Positions 4,477 through 21,980 of a stretch of 23,114 bases of DNA are shown here, in pieces (positions within the stretch are counted from its first letter, which is position 1; the number at the start of each line of letters is the position of its first letter). Source of the DNA: Pseudomonadota bacterium (GTDB taxonomy: Bacteria; Pseudomonadota; Gammaproteobacteria; Steroidobacterales; Woeseiaceae); contig JADFGH010000001.1 of NCBI GenBank assembly GCA_022567775.1, positions 1-23,114 of the forward strand, given 5' to 3'. The notes beneath the pieces were generated by a model. The model made no database searches, was not told where the DNA came from, and saw nothing but the letters and a program-made list of their open reading frames with translations. The translations under genes were made by a program, and so were the position numbers.

Positions 4477-5079
4477 ATGAACAAGAAATTTGCGATTATA
4501 TTTTCATTGGCCGGACTCCTTGCCGCAGGCATCGCGTTCACCATTTTCCGCAACCAGCCGCAGGCGATCGACGTGCAGCCGGTTGTCGAGGCGGCAACAC
4601 CGGTGGTTGTCGAGCGCTTGGACTTCTCACTGCCGGATCTCGATGGCAATGTGCGCAAACTTTCGGACTGGGACGGCAAAGCCCGGCTGGTGAATTTCTG
4701 GGCGACCTGGTGCGCACCGTGCCGCCGGGAGATTCCTCTCCTGAAAAGCACGCAGGAAGCACACGCAGGGAACAATCTGCAGATCATCGGGATTGCCGTC
4801 GACTTCCTGGAGCCGGTACAGGCCTACGCGGAAGAAACCGACTTCAACTACCCGATCCTGGTCGGGCAGGAAGACGCGATGGCTGCCGCGGAAGCATCGG
4901 GGCTGGAGTTCATCGGCATGCCTTTTACGATGGTGGTCGCACCGGGCGGCGAGCTTCTGAAAACGCATATCGGTGAGATCGTTGAGGCGCACATCGAGAA
5001 AATCCTGGGCGTATTCGAACAACTCGAGTCCGGCGAGATCGACCTCGCCGGCGCCAGGACTGCGCTGCAAGACCTGTAG
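4477..5079 (+). CDS. TlpA/ResA-like membrane-anchored thioredoxin
   Basis: This 200-residue protein has an N-terminal uncleaved anchor or signal (about residues 4-23), then a thioredoxin fold of the TlpA/AhpC-TSA type. The redox motif WCAPC is at residues 78-82 after VNFWAT. The cis-proline loop is in the GMPFTMVV region, the usual position for the family. It should act in the periplasm as a thiol reductase, for example in cytochrome c maturation or as a partner of DsbD. It begins 5 nt after dsbD, which supports co-transcription and reduction by DsbD. Its stop codon TAG (5077-5079) lies inside the first bases of an interspersed repeat (GTAGGAGGGGC), so the last residues may have been set by the repeat's arrival. 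Confidence 0.88.
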   Translation: MNKKFAIIFSLAGLLAAGIAFTIFRNQPQAIDVQPVVEAATPVVVERLDFSLPDLDGNVRKLSDWDGKARLVNFWATWCAPCRREIPLLKSTQEAHAGNNLQIIGIAVDFLEPVQAYAEETDFNYPILVGQEDAMAAAEASGLEFIGMPFTMVVAPGGELLKTHIGEIVEAHIEKILGVFEQLESGEIDLAGARTALQDL

Positions 5080-5300
5080 GAGGGGCTTTGTGTGCAGGGA
5101 CGCGCTAATGTCGCGACAAAATCGCCGGGAGCGATTTTGGATAACGCCATAGGCGTTAGCCCGACAAATCGTCAGGACAGACGATTTGGACGCCTGAGCG
5201 TAGCGAAGGCGCCCGAAGGGTGAGCTGCAGGGATGCAGCGAATCAACGGCTGAGGGCAGGATGCCCGAATCAACGACAGGATGTCCGAGAGCGACGAGCC
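5076..5300 (+). repeat. Mosaic interspersed repeat with nested hairpins (long copy)
   Basis: The head (GTAGGAGGGGCTTTGTGTG onward, to about 5116) and the tail (5274-5300, ending GAGAGCGACGAGCC) match, in inverse orientation, the two ends of the 78-nt copy inside purH. Between them is a chain of inverted repeats: 5117-5139 (CAAAATCGC/GCGATTTTG), 5142-5158 (TAACGCC/GGCGTTA), 5165-5188 (CAAATCGTC/GACGATTTG), 5191-5211 (CGCCT/AGGCG), 5224-5239 (GCTGCA/TGCAGC), 5254-5266 (GGGCA/TGCCC) and 5275-5285 (GACA/TGTC). The last three have GGGA or GGA loops. No protein is supported here. It fills the gap between two convergent genes. Confidence 0.8.
5224..5285 (+). repeat. Tandem hairpins with GGA loops and GAATCAACG spacers
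   Basis: Three hairpins with different stems follow one another: GCTGCA-GGGA-TGCAGC, GGGCA-GGA-TGCCC and GACA-GGA-TGTC. GAATCAACG occurs twice (5240-5248 and 5267-5275), giving a 27-nt period. The stems differ in sequence but pair fully, and the loop is kept. Confidence 0.75.
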
Positions 5301-5319
5301 CCAAACCGGGGTTGAGCCA

Positions 5320-5356
5320 TTCGCGGCTGAAGCCGCTCCCACAAATCCGCTCCTAC
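5320..5356 (-). repeat. REP-like palindrome, GTAGGAGCGG...GCGGCT/AGCCGC type
   Basis: On the minus strand this starts CGTAGGAGCGG, repeats TGGGAGCGG, and ends in the hairpin GCGGCT-TC-AGCCGC. It is the simple form of the interspersed repeat and belongs to the same sequence family as the blocks inside the DUF3426 gene. Its TAG is the stop codon of the TPR gene on the minus strand. Confidence 0.8.
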
Positions 5357-10581: not shown

Positions 10582-12330
10582 ATGTTTACCGAATGCCCCG
10601 AATGTAGCACTGCATTTCGTGTCACCGCGAAGGTACTGCAACAGGCAGGTGGCCGGGTGCGCTGCGGCGGATGTGGCCACGCATTCAGTGCGATCGAACA
10701 TCTGACCGAAGAAGTGCCGGGCTCGAACGAGCAGGACAGCACTCCTCCTTCCGAAGCCGCCGATGACCTGACGTCCGACGACAAATTTGCGGAGACCAGC
10801 AGGCTGTTGTTGAAGACACTGGATGAACTCGCCGGTCCGCAAGATGTACGTATCGAAGATACAGGCTTCGAGTGGCAGGTTTTGGACGACGATGAGGACG
10901 AAGGAATCGCGGCTGAAGCCGCTCCCACAGAAGCCGCTCCCACAAAGGATGTCGCGGCTGGCGCCGCGCCCACGGAATCCGATGAAGAGCAGGCCGAGCC
11001 TGCCCTGAGCGAACAGGAGGACTGGACCGGCCTGCTCGAAGAAGTCGCCGAAGACGATACCGGAGCCGACGCCATATCGCTTGAAGTTGAAGAAGAACTC
11101 GCAGCCATTCATAACGAACTATCCACGAAACAAGATCCTGCGCCCGTCGATCTCAACTCCCAGTTCGATATGCAGGCGGAAGCGATGGGACTTGAAATTA
11201 CCGGCACGCACGATATCGAGGATGTAGATGAAGATGATCTGACCGACGCTGTGGCACTGACAGAGGATGACGAAGGAATCGCGGCTGGCGCCGCTCCCGC
11301 AGACGCCGTTCCCACAGATGACGAGGAAGAAGGAATCGCGGCTGGTCGCTCTCGCCCATCCATGGGCTCCGCGACATACGTACATCCTGTACAAAAAGCC
11401 GCTCCCTCAGAGCCCGCTCCCGCAGAAGAGGCGACTAAGCTGTCGCTTGAAGGTGCCGATGGCGCTGCGCCGGTAAAACCCGAATATTCGGTAGCCGATG
11501 AATTGCCCGAGCCGTCTGAGGAAGAGATGACCATCAATCAGCAGATTGACCAGGAATTGTTGGCTGCGGCGGATGAGGACATAGATTTAAAGGCTACGCT
11601 GGTTGGCCTCGAGGTCCCGGGCGGTTTGTTTGACGAGGACTCGCCAGAAGTTGAGTCGATCGTCATGGAAGGCGAAACCGTCCGTGGCTCCTTCGACGAG
11701 GAAGAAACCAGGCGCCCACGGCATGAGGCACTAAGCCGTTTCGATAACGCCGGCAATCTTGTCGACAGCTATATTGCAAACAGAGCTATGCGCGGTGGCC
11801 GGCGCAGGACGGATCCGGCGAGCTATGGCGTGATTGCCGGCACCATATTGTTGTCGCTGCTGCTGGTTGGCCAGGTCGTCCACGCCAACCGCGAGTCGCT
11901 TTCGACGGCCGGACTGTTCAATCAAACGATTGGATCGGTATATCGCATGTTCGGCAATCCCATAATGCCCGAGTGGGACATCAAGGGCTGGCAGTTTGAA
12001 GCAACGAATGGCAGTATCGCCGAAGACGAGGACGTGTTGACGATCTTGTCGCGCATCGGCAACAGGTCGCAGCAACCACTGCCATATCCCCTGGTGCATG
12101 TGTCACTGACCGACCGCCGGGAAGAAATAATCGGTAGTCGCGTACTCGAGCCGAACGAGTATCTTGCCGGCGATCTGGATCCTAGCAAGCCAGTGACACC
12201 CGGAGAAAATTTCACGGCAGTCATCACGATTGACGAGCCATCCGTCGACGCTACCGGCTTCAAACTGAACGTCTGTTACCGGGTAAGCCCGGGACGAGTG
12301 CGCTGCGCCACCGACGACTTCAAAAACTGA
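10582..12330 (+). CDS. Zinc-ribbon / DUF3426 membrane protein carrying in-frame interspersed repeats
   Basis: The protein has 582 residues. Residues 1-35 form an MJ0042-type zinc ribbon (C5, C8, C28, C31 in CPEC and CGGC). Residues about 40-405 are a long, highly acidic, probably disordered region. One membrane helix lies at about 413-436 (VIAGTILLSLLLVGQVV), and a C-terminal DUF3426 domain of about 145 residues is presumably periplasmic. The family sits between prmA and dusB-fis in many gammaproteobacteria; its function is not established. The acidic region contains three blocks whose DNA is the genome's interspersed repeat, read in frame as peptides such as GIAAEAAPTEAAPT and GIAAGAAP (10903-10975, 11275-11317, 11332-11421). 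Homologues are usually shorter. The start is 3 nt after the prmA stop. Confidence 0.88.
   Translation: MFTECPECSTAFRVTAKVLQQAGGRVRCGGCGHAFSAIEHLTEEVPGSNEQDSTPPSEAADDLTSDDKFAETSRLLLKTLDELAGPQDVRIEDTGFEWQVLDDDEDEGIAAEAAPTEAAPTKDVAAGAAPTESDEEQAEPALSEQEDWTGLLEEVAEDDTGADAISLEVEEELAAIHNELSTKQDPAPVDLNSQFDMQAEAMGLEITGTHDIEDVDEDDLTDAVALTEDDEGIAAGAAPADAVPTDDEEEGIAAGRSRPSMGSATYVHPVQKAAPSEPAPAEEATKLSLEGADGAAPVKPEYSVADELPEPSEEEMTINQQIDQELLAAADEDIDLKATLVGLEVPGGLFDEDSPEVESIVMEGETVRGSFDEEETRRPRHEALSRFDNAGNLVDSYIANRAMRGGRRRTDPASYGVIAGTILLSLLLVGQVVHANRESLSTAGLFNQTIGSVYRMFGNPIMPEWDIKGWQFEATNGSIAEDEDVLTILSRIGNRSQQPLPYPLVHVSLTDRREEIIGSRVLEPNEYLAGDLDPSKPVTPGENFTAVITIDEPSVDATGFKLNVCYRVSPGRVRCATDDFKN
10903..10975. 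repeat. REP-like repeat block inside DUF3426 gene (copy 1)
   Basis: GGAATCGCGGCTGAAGCCGC TCCCACA is followed by a half-repeat AAGCCGCTCCCACA and a third GTCGCGGCTGGCGCCGCGCC. The hairpin GCGGCT-GA-AGCCGC is the same as at 5323-5336. The flanking 19-nt sequence starting GACGAAGGAATCGCG recurs exactly at 11269. Confidence 0.85.
11275..11317. repeat. REP-like repeat block inside DUF3426 gene (copy 2)
   Basis: GGAATCGCGGCTGGCGCCGC followed by TCCCGCAG and a degraded second half ending GTTCCCACAG. It is in the same orientation and reading frame as copy 1, giving GIAAGAAPADAVPT. Confidence 0.8.
11332..11421 (-). repeat. Mosaic hairpin repeat inside DUF3426 gene (78-nt core, copy 3)
   Basis: The core 11332-11409 has the same length and the same arms as the purH copy at 14267-14344: GGAATCGCGGCT at one end, GTCGCTCTCG next, CTCCGCGACAT in the middle and AAGCCGCTCCC at the other end. 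The two variable hairpins here are CCCATCCATGGG and GTACATCCTGTAC. The frame is kept, encoding a GRSRPSMGSATYVHPVQKAA-like stretch. Confidence 0.82.
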
Positions 12331-13685: not shown

Positions 13686-14366
13686 ATGTTCAAAGTGCGG
13701 CGCGCGCTTGTCAGCGTTTCTGACAAGCGTAATTTGATTCCGTTTGCCCAGGGGCTACAGCGCCTGGGTGCAGAAATTCTGTCGACCGGCGGCACCTGCC
13801 GGCAACTTAACGAAGCGGGCATCGACGCCGTCGAGGTGTCATCCAGGACCGGGTTTCCCGAGATTATGGGCGGCCGGGTCAAAACATTGCACCCGATCAT
13901 TCATGGCGGACTGCTGGGCCGGCGCGGCACCGACGATGACGTCATGACCGAGCATGGCATCGAACCCATCGACCTGCTGGCCGTTAACCTGTATCCGTTC
14001 GAGGAAACCATCAGCAGAGCCGACGCATCGCTTGCGGACGCCATCGAGAATATTGATATCGGGGGGCCCGCCATGATCAGGGCGGCGTCCAAGAATCATG
14101 ATGGCGTTGTCGTTGTCGTCGATCCGGATGACTACAATGCGATCCTCGATGCGCTTCAGTCCGATCAAATGACAGAAGAATACCGCCGCAGCCTGGCGGC
14201 AAAAGCTTATGCGCTCACTGCAAGCTATGACATTGCAATTACCCGCTATCTTTCGGCATTGGATGAGGAATCGCGGCTCGTCGCTCTCGGACGTCCTGTC
14301 CTCCGCGACATTAGTGCGTCCCTGCACACAAAGCCGCTCCCACATTCCTGCTGTTGGCACCCGTAG
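13686..14366 (+). pseudogene. purH: Truncated purH: IMP cyclohydrolase domain only
   Basis: Full PurH is a bifunctional enzyme of about 520 residues: an N-terminal IMP cyclohydrolase (about 1-200) and a C-terminal AICAR formyltransferase, performing the last two steps of IMP synthesis. Here only 226 residues remain. The cyclohydrolase half is complete by motif: RRALVSVSDK, STGGTCRQL, GRVKTLHPIIHGGLL, NLYPFEET, ENIDIGGPAMIRAASKNH and VVVDPDDY, ending near SYDIAITRYLS. From about residue 194 the protein is encoded by an interspersed repeat (ESRLVALGR..., DISASLHTKPLPH) and stops at a repeat-borne TAG. No trace of the transformylase domain or of the usual downstream purD is present before relA. 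It could be a pseudogene, a split enzyme with a separate transformylase elsewhere, or the product of an assembly join at a repeat. Confidence 0.88.
14267..14344 (-). repeat. Mosaic hairpin repeat at the 3' end of truncated purH
   Basis: This is a 78-nt copy. Read on the minus strand it has the head TGTGGGAGCGGCTTTGTGTG, the hairpin GTGCAGGGACGCAC, the middle block ATGTCGCGGAG, the hairpin GGACAGGACGTCC and the tail GAGAGCGACGAGCCGCGATT. Head and tail match the long copy after tlpA, and the layout matches copy 3 in the DUF3426 gene. Confidence 0.85.
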
Positions 14367-14387
14367 GAGCGCCGTCCCGGCGCGATT
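14363..14387 (+). repeat. REP-like hairpin between purH fragment and relA
   Basis: GTAGGAGCGCC-GTCCC-GGCGCGATT has a stem GCGCC/GGCGC (14369-14383). Its TAG (14364-14366) terminates the purH fragment, and its far end overlaps the relA stop codon (14387-14389, minus strand). It could act as a two-way transcription barrier, but there is no T-tract for a classical terminator. Confidence 0.75.
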
Positions 14388-16519
14388 CAATTCCGGCGGC
14401 GGACCGAGGTTACATTCGGTAATTGTTCGAGCCGGTTGATGACGCGGCTGAGTGTCGGCAGACCGGGCACCGAGACATCTAAATCCATCGTCACCTGCAT
14501 CGACTGTTTGTCGGTCTGTGTCTGGATGCTGTCGACACTGACATTTTCGTCGGCAAATACACTGCTGACATCGCGCAGCAGGCCTTGCCGGTCGAATGCA
14601 TGCAGTTGCAACTCTGCCGGATAAATGGCGTCGGCGGCATTTCCCCAGTCAACGTCAATGACTCGCTCCGGATGACGGGCATGCAGGCTCAGGTAATTGC
14701 CGCAGTCCTGGCGATGAATACTGACGCCGCGGCCTTTCGTGATGTATCCAATAATGTCCTCAGGCGGCACCGGACGGCAGCAGCGTGCGAAATTGCATAG
14801 CAAATCCCCAACGCCGCTGATCGCGATGCCAGCAGAGCCGGATTTCTTCTGCGGTGACTGTCGCCGCTTGCGAATGACCTCCGCCGGTTCTTCCCGCCGC
14901 AGGTTCTGCACGGCTGAGGCGATCGAGGCCGCAGTAATGTCGCCGGCACCCAGGGCGATGTACAACGCGTCGTTGTTGCCGAACTTCAACTGTTTGGCCA
15001 GCTCTTGCGTAGCAAGGTCGCGAACATTCAGGCGCCCAAGTTCCCGCTCGAGCATTTCACGACCCTGGCGCTTGTTCTGCTCCTTGTCCCGTTGACGAAA
15101 CCAGCTTCGAACCTTGGTGCGACTCCGGGATGCGGCCAGGTAACCGAGTTGCGGACTCAGCCAGTCGCGACTCGGTTGTGGGTTCTTGCCCGTGATGATT
15201 TCAATCTTGTCGCCATTTTGGACTTTGTAAGTCAACGGCACGATACGGCCGTTGACCTTGGCGCCGCGGCAGCGATGTCCGACTTGTGTGTGCACATGGT
15301 AGGCGAAGTCGAGCGGCGTCGAGTTGGCCGGCATCTCGACGACATCGCCTTTGGGGCTTACCGCATAAACGCGGTCCTCGAATATGTCGCCGCGAATCTG
15401 CTCGAGAAGATCGCCATCGTGCCCGGTCGGTTCCAGTAAACTGCGCAACAGGTGTATTTTCTGATCGAACGATGCTGTGCTCGTGCCGCCTTCCTTGTAG
15501 CGCCAGTGTGCGGCGACGCCGAGTTCTGCATGGCGATGCATGTCATGAGTTCTGATCTGCACCTCGAGCGTCTGTCTGTCAGGCCCGATAACGGCAGTAT
15601 GCAGCGACTGGTAATTGTTGTCTTTCGGATTCGCAATATAGTCGTCAAACTCGCCCGGCAAATACGACCAGAGATTATGCACAACGCCTAATGCTGCATA
15701 ACAGTCGCTGACATCGCTGACGAGGACCCGCACCGCCCGGACATCGAAGATTTGGTCCAGGCCGCGGTTCTTTTTCTGCATTTTTCTCCAGATGCTGAAA
15801 ATGTGTTTGGGCCTGCCACTGATATCGGCAACGATGTCATTCCTTGCAAGTTCCGCTCCCAGCGTATCTTTCAGTTGCTCGATAAACGACTCGCGTTCAT
15901 TGCGCTTTTCTTTCAGTGTTTTCGCAATGTGCCTGTAGGTATCCGGCTCGAGATAGCGAAATGCCAGGTCCTCCAGCTCCCATTTGAACTGCCATACGCC
16001 CAGCCGGTTCGCCAGCGGCGCATAGATCTCCTGTGTTTCCACGGCAAGCGAGCGCTGTTCGGCCACATCTGCGGACTTTGCAAGGCGCAATCGGTACAGT
16101 TGTTCTGCAATGCGCACCAGGACCAGCCGCGCGTCGGACACCACCGCGAGCAGCATCTTGCGCAGTGCCTCCGACTGCTGAACGGCAAGTGCCTCACCCG
16201 GCTGCCAGTTGGGCGGGAGCGTGAAGCTCCCCAGTTGCACCAGCCCCTGAACGAGCTCCGGCAGACCCTCGATTTTCAGCTTCTGCAGATCCTTCAGCCC
16301 AATCAGGCCCTCTCTGCGCAGTGGATAGACCCGTACCGCCGCAACCAGGGCCTGCGGCAGCGCCAGCGGCTCCAGGATTAAACAAATCTGCTCACCCTGC
16401 AGGCGCGCCGCCAGGATATCCGGGCGATCCGGCAGGGTGGCTGCAAAATCATCGACCCGGGTGACAATAACGGCGGGTTCGGCATCGATCTGCCTGTTTT
16501 CGGTTTCAGAAATAGCCAT
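14387..16519 (-). CDS. relA: RelA-type (p)ppGpp synthetase
   Basis: This 710-residue protein belongs to the long RSH family. The N-terminal third resembles the hydrolase fold but lacks the HD catalytic motif, so hydrolase activity is unlikely. The synthetase domain (about 235-345) has RPKHIFSIWRKMQKK, FDVRAVRVL and GEFDDYIANPKDNNYQSLHT; the EFDD form (E290-D293) marks the synthetase-only RelA rather than SpoT. Then come a TGS domain (about 382-445, VYAVSPKGDVVEMP), a helical part, a cysteine-containing zinc-finger/RIS region (CNFARCCRPVPPEDIIGYIT) and a C-terminal ACT domain. It responds to amino-acid starvation on ribosomes. It is divergent from yebC and convergent with the truncated purH, about 20 nt away. 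Confidence 0.93.
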   Translation of the reverse strand: MAISETENRQIDAEPAVIVTRVDDFAATLPDRPDILAARLQGEQICLILEPLALPQALVAAVRVYPLRREGLIGLKDLQKLKIEGLPELVQGLVQLGSFTLPPNWQPGEALAVQQSEALRKMLLAVVSDARLVLVRIAEQLYRLRLAKSADVAEQRSLAVETQEIYAPLANRLGVWQFKWELEDLAFRYLEPDTYRHIAKTLKEKRNERESFIEQLKDTLGAELARNDIVADISGRPKHIFSIWRKMQKKNRGLDQIFDVRAVRVLVSDVSDCYAALGVVHNLWSYLPGEFDDYIANPKDNNYQSLHTAVIGPDRQTLEVQIRTHDMHRHAELGVAAHWRYKEGGTSTASFDQKIHLLRSLLEPTGHDGDLLEQIRGDIFEDRVYAVSPKGDVVEMPANSTPLDFAYHVHTQVGHRCRGAKVNGRIVPLTYKVQNGDKIEIITGKNPQPSRDWLSPQLGYLAASRSRTKVRSWFRQRDKEQNKRQGREMLERELGRLNVRDLATQELAKQLKFGNNDALYIALGAGDITAASIASAVQNLRREEPAEVIRKRRQSPQKKSGSAGIAISGVGDLLCNFARCCRPVPPEDIIGYITKGRGVSIHRQDCGNYLSLHARHPERVIDVDWGNAADAIYPAELQLHAFDRQGLLRDVSSVFADENVSVDSIQTQTDKQSMQVTMDLDVSVPGLPTLSRVINRLEQLPNVTSVRRRN

Positions 16520-21180: not shown

Positions 21181-21980
21181 TACGCGACAAGCACAACATC
21201 GTTCCGCTGTTCCTTGCCGCGGTTTTTCATGTGCTGATTTTCGGCGGGCTGGTGCTGGCTATCGATTTTTCATCGCCGGCGTATCCGGCCGTGCCGCTTG
21301 CCATCACCGCGACCCTCATTACGGAAGCAGACCTGCCGAAAGCTCCGCCGGTTGAGGAACCGGAGCCCGAGCCGCAACCGGAACCGGACACCTCCGTCGA
21401 GGACCGGATCCGCGCAGAGGAAGTCAGGCGGCAGGCAGACATGCGCGAGGAGCAGGAACGCATTCGTCTCGAAGAACAGGCCGATCAGAAGCGCCGGCAG
21501 GAGGAAGCGGCTGAGCGCAAGCGGCGCCAGGAACAAGAGGTCGAACGATTACGGGCAGAGGCAGAGCGCAAGCGGCTCGAGGATATCGAACGGCAGCAGT
21601 TGGAAAATCAGCGCCTGCGCCTGGAGGCTGAAGAAGCCGAGTTGCAAAAAAGGCGGCAGGCTGAACTGGATGCCGAAGATATGCGGCTGGCAGCGCTGAG
21701 TGCCAATGACACAATGCGCTGGGTGTTCGCGCTGCAACAACAGATTGCGCGGAATTTCGTTCTGCCTGCTTCTGCCCCTGAAAACCTCGAATGCGTGGTC
21801 CACATCCGGCAACTTCCGGGTGGTCAGGTGGTCAGTGTTGAGGTCGGCCGCTGCAACGGCGATGAGTCAGTACGTCGCGCCATTGAAGCAGCGGTTTACA
21901 AGGCTTCGCCACTACCGTCACCGGACAATCCGGGTGTTTTTGATCGGGACTTGCGGATCACGTTCAAACCTGAACAATAG
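21177..21980 (+). CDS. tolA: TolA, periplasm-spanning protein
   Basis: TolA links the TolQR motor to Pal and TolB. It starts at TTG 21177, overlapping the tolR stop (TTGA). The 267-residue product has an N-terminal membrane helix (about 10-29), a proline/glutamate segment (PPVEEPEPEPQPEP), a long charged coiled coil of E/R/K/Q repeats (about 75-178) and a C-terminal globular domain (about 183-267) with two cysteines (ECVV and GRCNG). It is much shorter than E. coli TolA (421 residues), mainly through a shorter coiled coil, which is common outside the enterics. Confidence 0.93.
   Translation: MIRDKHNIVPLFLAAVFHVLIFGGLVLAIDFSSPAYPAVPLAITATLITEADLPKAPPVEEPEPEPQPEPDTSVEDRIRAEEVRRQADMREEQERIRLEEQADQKRRQEEAAERKRRQEQEVERLRAEAERKRLEDIERQQLENQRLRLEAEEAELQKRRQAELDAEDMRLAALSANDTMRWVFALQQQIARNFVLPASAPENLECVVHIRQLPGGQVVSVEVGRCNGDESVRRAIEAAVYKASPLPSPDNPGVFDRDLRITFKPEQ

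Follow-up and report, generated by a model that had tools for sequence, protein, structure and literature searches.

The window analysed here is a stretch of 23,114 nucleotides, contig C86 of an assembly of 403 contigs that is 82.95% complete and 3.09% contaminated; judged by its contig, completeness and contamination figures, the source assembly is probably a metagenome-assembled genome. The reading frame with the purH start was read from the sequence at positions 13686-14366 and encodes 226 amino acids. Its N-terminal part (13686-14266, plus strand, approximately residues 1-194) holds the IMP cyclohydrolase domain. Pfam places MGS (PF02142) at residues 17-128; of the 311 positions of AICARFT_IMPCHas (PF01808), just the first 62 are matched. 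The PurH homology is lost past approximately residue 194, around position 14267, and a 78-nt composite REP-type element follows (14267-14344, plus strand). The frame terminates at the TAG at 14364-14366, inside a second repeat, a GTAG-tagged palindrome with the sequence GTAGGAGCGCCGTCCCGGCGCGATTC (14363-14388, plus strand), which lies at the 3' end of a relA-type gene identified by Pfam and NCBIfam (14387-16519, minus strand). The relA stop codon (14387-14389) overlaps the last two bases of this repeat.

An earlier note on this DNA had described purH as cut at its domain boundary by an interspersed repeat, with the frame crossing a 78-nt repeat and ending at the TAG of a second one. The cut at the boundary is borne out by the reading frame, the Pfam matches and the repeat copies, and the note is right in substance. 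The note had also placed relA one base away. This holds roughly for the repeat only; the relA stop codon lies 20 bases past the purH stop. A DNA search of a plasmid collection with the purH frame gave distant matches only, to purH wherever annotated, among the 20 of 21 records listed.

The 78-nt element was delimited by a covariance model match and consists of an outer stem and two inner hairpins. The purH copy reads in frame as ESRLVALGRPVLRDISASLHTKPLP. Its outer arms are GCGGCT and AGCCGCTCCCACA, the latter being the reverse complement of a GTAG/GTGG-type foot. An alignment of eight copies shows four helices: the outer REP stem, the two parts of a first hairpin, and another hairpin. In this fold, 98.8% of the 168 cells pair, and 4 of the 21 pairs are changed on both sides. 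All of the two-sided changes lie in the inner hairpin parts; the base helix of hairpin 1 is invariant, two outer-stem cells are unpaired, and neither helix shows two-sided changes. The covariation score was reached by none of 500 shuffles and the number of two-sided pairs by 2 of 500, and slid structures scored well below; the structure was drawn from the same sequences and a fold, so these statistics lean their way. When folded as DNA, the purH copy forms a three-way junction, with z values of -3.00 on one strand and -2.17 on the other, and the copy in a DUF3426 gene gave a z value of -3.61. An Rfam search of positions 14200-14450 returned no match.

Copies of the element are dispersed through the genome. 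At least seven further near-full copies and one split copy (5075-5300) were found by DNA search, and the model search found at least 15 copies in this genome and 13 in the congener G003, with matches in 9 of the 12 genus genomes; these counts are lower bounds because 40 of 57 candidates were scored in the DNA search and 150 of 339 in the model search. Two of the 15 copies lie in frame in recognised genes, namely purH and the DUF3426 gene. The other 13 have no evident gene across them, the reading frames here being judged by eye and without a family search. The gene context in G003 was examined for 12 of the 13 copies, with that on contig C51 left out. The second in-frame copy of the window (11332-11409, plus strand) is located in the DUF3426 gene (10582-12330, Pfam), in a frame other than that of purH. 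Several REP-type copies were also observed in frame within this gene at 10891-11429, again in a frame differing from that of purH. At the DNA level, in-frame insertion is seen in the DUF3426 gene and, as a weak copy of 45.7 bits, in an APH/choline-kinase-like reading frame of G003 (contig C22, L220, positions 21718-21794). The element was also examined for selection on open frames, an idea that was set aside: in total open frames, two of eight copies stand out, with 13 and 14 of 500 shuffles attaining as many, and six do not.

The second repeat forms a hairpin (z value of -2.74) and has at least eight other matching places in the genome, with 40 of 57 candidates scored; one of them is at the stop of lpd on contig C128. 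Simple REPs were counted by an exact pattern, GTRGGAGCGGCT..AGCCGCGA, which occurs at 54 sites in this genome, compared with zero for the reversed control pattern. By this pattern, simple REPs are present in 7 of the 12 genus genomes. The repeats have a short palindromic stem, rich in G+C, with a GTAG/GTGG foot, and many dispersed copies that are mostly intergenic, as is characteristic of GTAG-type REPs. The Y1_Tnp transposase domain gave no matches in this genome, which is 83% complete, and one or more in 8 of 11 congeners. Seven Y1_Tnp neighbourhoods were read: REPs lie near those on G007:C337 and G001:C3, and no GTRGGAG foot was found in the other five.

Full-length PurH proteins carrying the same kind of insert were identified among public homologues. 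P0002, with 540 amino acids, equals the window frame at 214 of 217 residues, with the insert and its peptide included, and then continues as normal PurH. The two sequences run together up to and including residue 217 (KPLP); beyond it, the window reads HSCCWHP and P0002 reads QPLGERILYSG. In NCBIfam, P0002 scores past the cut-offs of the bifunctional PurH family; its matches to the two Pfam domains are nearly complete in length, and it also matches solved PurH chains such as 3zzm. It resembles bifunctional PurH (AICAR transformylase/IMP cyclohydrolase) in having both domains, and differs in the linker between two conserved motifs, which is 47 residues long rather than the usual 23. P0009 (541 amino acids) and P0060 (540 amino acids) are full-length PurH proteins with related inserts. 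In all three, known as protein sequences, the host protein continues beyond the in-frame insertion. These observations indicate that the purH insert is very probably real, that is, an in-frame element of GTAG-REP type in the interdomain linker of PurH.

Among the best 120 of 8000 scored homologues, 12 have short inserts, 3 have long inserts, 2 have possible remnants and 103 have none. The short inserts read SRLKPLPQ or similar, and the possible remnants consist of EESRL only; judging by the peptide, we take the 12 short inserts to be REP-derived. Outside the linker, P0001, which has no insert, shares 98.8% identity with P0002 (493 columns compared). On a quickly built tree that holds 115 of these homologues (all 120 but five unparsed ones, P0060 among them), the insert states are scattered. 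The four states need 11 changes on this tree, and its well-supported branches alone force at least five changes for the short insert form; the root was placed by midpoint and the support is SH-aLRT only, so that gains and losses of the insert look alike. The structure prediction of P0002, made from a shallow alignment of 39 rows, was mediocre (mean pLDDT of 69.9, pTM of 0.57). The predicted pLDDT is below 50 for residues 194-252, insert included; this fits a flexible linker and proves little. As a separate observation, P0122 (304 amino acids), from a JGI contig of 9531 bases in another assembly, is a PurH cut after the same element and followed by an unrelated tail. Its cut may be real or may reflect another false join.

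The rest of purH was found in the same assembly as the window. The transformylase part lies at positions 2-517 of contig C258 and covers PF01808 positions 142-311, and it is followed by purD (769-2055) and then a moeA-like gene, named by NCBIfam with scores below the equivalog cut-offs. On C258, the purH frame enters open from the contig edge and runs without a stop to its natural end. The contig starts within purH, approximately 82 codons past the element; these codons are in neither contig, and no overlap of both purH parts on one contig was found in the assembly. The spacer that separates the purH stop from the start of purD holds a simple REP, at 738-760 of C258 (L015). The earlier note had reported the transformylase half and purD as missing. 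They are indeed absent from the window, but the genome search that the note had proposed for them located both on C258.

Gene order in close relatives, a comparison also proposed there, shows purH whole and relA elsewhere. All 14 loci that were compared (L023-L033, L044, L045 and L053, of 80 fetched) have the two purH parts next to each other. Within the available stretch of each of these loci, purD is downstream in 11 and moeA in 5. In G003, the nearest congener, dusB-fis-purH-purD-moeA stand one after another, with identities of 89.7-95.3%. All 12 genus genomes have purH matches, located on two contigs in this genome and in G011. The PurH linker has 23 residues and no insert in all 10 parsed congeners (of 11, G006 being the one left out). 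The relA gene belongs in relatives to a block with ruvC, ruvA and ruvB, away from purH: all 15 relative loci have it next to ruvC, and purH was found in none of them, in stretches of 3.5 to 13 kb. The frame of lpd, a dihydrolipoyl dehydrogenase of the 475-amino-acid type, lies within 1.6 kb past the relA 3' end in 12 of 14 flanks (L122 and L128 are without it, and L129 was excluded as too short); it was recognised by its start and length, with one of the twelve named by NCBIfam. In this genome, lpd is on C128, where the second repeat provides its TAG stop codon. Past this repeat, C128 leads to a DUF6090 gene rather than to relA, so the neighbourhood there is unsettled. Elsewhere in the window, NCBIfam assigns one gene to the YebC/PmpR family.

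Taken together, it is highly probable that a whole purH with an in-frame 78-nt element was joined falsely to relA during assembly at the repeat. The location of the remainder of purH on C258, the whole purH in 14 of 14 loci, the position of relA elsewhere and the normal continuation of P0002 all argue that the join to relA is false, and a false assembly join is the most likely account of it. The purH gene would be a single gene, followed by purD and the moeA-like gene as in relatives, and this step is well supported. The 78-nt composite REP would stand in frame at the junction of the two PurH domains and lengthen the linker by approximately 24 residues. The assembly would have left purH inside the repeat and run on into the 3' flank of relA, and the remainder of purH would have become contig C258. 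The cause of such a jump would be that both the element and the second repeat have copies scattered across the genome. From the divergence between the window and P0002, the join is likely to lie at 14330-14362 (unstranded), in the 3' arm of the element and the spacer to the second repeat. The element itself would belong to the GTAG-type REPs and owe its mobility to an IS200-like (RAYT-type) transposase, candidates for which lie next to such REPs in two congeners; its persistence in purH may reflect an interdomain linker that accommodates additional residues.

Some observations stand against this explanation. The two purH parts share no contig, the repeat beside lpd on C128 leads away from relA, and P0122 is cut after the same element. 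For the nature of the element, the zero Y1_Tnp matches in this genome, the five of seven congener neighbourhoods that lack such REPs, and the outer stem and hairpin 1 base without two-sided changes also weigh on this side. The arm in which the window and P0002 diverge is short, and the join requires a matching copy on the relA side, where none is visible. Against P0002, C258 shows 12 differences in 241 residues and the window part 3 in 217; three of the 12 are in the first 13 residues of C258, at the contig end. This unequal divergence suggests that the window part and C258 may stem from different strains.

A real rearrangement could have produced the same junction if recombination between repeat copies had split purH in this strain, so that the first part next to relA would be dead or act as a cyclohydrolase only. 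An interspersed repeat is a natural site for such recombination, and P0122 is a second truncated protein that ends after the same element; nevertheless, the undamaged remainder of purH with purD on C258, the near-identical full-length protein with the same insert and the lack of purH in the 15 relA loci of relatives make this improbable. Less credible still is a functional split, in which a free IMP cyclohydrolase is made here and the transformylase is translated separately on C258. The break does fall at the domain boundary and leaves the first domain complete. Furthermore, the 216-residue chain of ForH (6nko) matches the cyclohydrolase domain alone among solved structures, which indicates that short proteins of this fold exist. 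The frame on C258, however, does not look like a separate and complete transformylase gene: its PurH homology runs from the first codon at the contig end with no start there, so that any true start would lie past that end, the approximately 82 missing codons belong to the transformylase side, and such a split occurs in none of the 14 compared loci. It is equally hard to believe that the insert-bearing PurH proteins, known as protein sequences alone, are assembly products and that no real purH has the element, since P0002, P0009, P0060 and the twelve short-insert proteins keep the frame into normal PurH, which random joins would not restore beyond the insert.

These results leave the false join between repeat copies as the best supported of the three options in the earlier note. 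A purine auxotroph with an inactivated gene does not agree with a stop-free purH remainder and purD, nor with a near-identical full-length PurH that contains the repeat; the stop-free remainder and the same protein also speak against a split purH with a free IMP cyclohydrolase. The note had not foreseen that the repeat is a probable in-frame insertion in purH.

GTAG-tagged REPs are known in intragenic, in-frame copies, and their ends supply TAG stops to neighbouring genes (PMC3733652). The repeats studied here resemble them in the foot on a short palindromic stem, in their dispersal, in the presence of some copies in frame within genes, and in the supply of a TAG stop, here to the purH frame and to lpd. 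The 78-nt form differs in that it encloses two further hairpins and forms a three-way junction. REPs have been described as parts of longer palindromes, and REP units as linked to stem-loops unrelated to them (PMC3733652), so a composite build is not new in itself. Rickettsia palindromic elements (RPE) are also found in frame in otherwise normal proteins, to which they add tens of residues (PMC3733652), and the palindromic insertion in purH is alike in this respect. They belong to another lineage, the likeness is one of description rather than of sequence, and the element here is without a general sign of open-frame selection.

The short inserts, the composite form and the apparent remnants occupy the same place in PurH, in the same frame, in different lineages. 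From these sequences, there is about an even chance that a mobile REP repeatedly lands in and remodels the PurH linker of this clade, being gained, nested and lost there. REPs have been reported at about the same recB site in two Xanthomonas species (PMC3733652); the main text of that paper does not mention purH. A limited literature search found neither the composite three-way-junction REP form nor a recurrent purH site in print, and no paper on an intragenic palindromic REP in purH or on palindromic repeats in Woeseiaceae. If the linker is such a recurrent site, it would be a natural linker-length experiment in an enzyme of purine synthesis. An in-frame element where the domains of a core enzyme meet would let the linker tolerance of PurH be asked, and its presence and absence in a PurH pair of 98.8% identity offers a route to asking how REPs enter and leave genes. 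Dispersed repeats of REP type can also make a fragmented assembly mimic a purine auxotroph or a split enzyme.

Other repeat-related features were observed in the window. A larger relative of the element with inverted repeats lies at 5075-5342 on the minus strand, and the fold of 5075-5345 has a z value of -5.82. The halves of the 78-nt form are approximately 160 nt apart in this composite, with further hairpins between them, several with TCC-type loops, and an exact simple REP lies beside it at 5321-5342. Pieces of the composite match G005:C9, G008:C134, G011:C117, G001:C69 and others, with a different order in some. At 612-1641 on the minus strand, two adjoining reading frames carry DDE_3 and HTH_33 domains, and this pair is perhaps an IS630-like transposase in two pieces.
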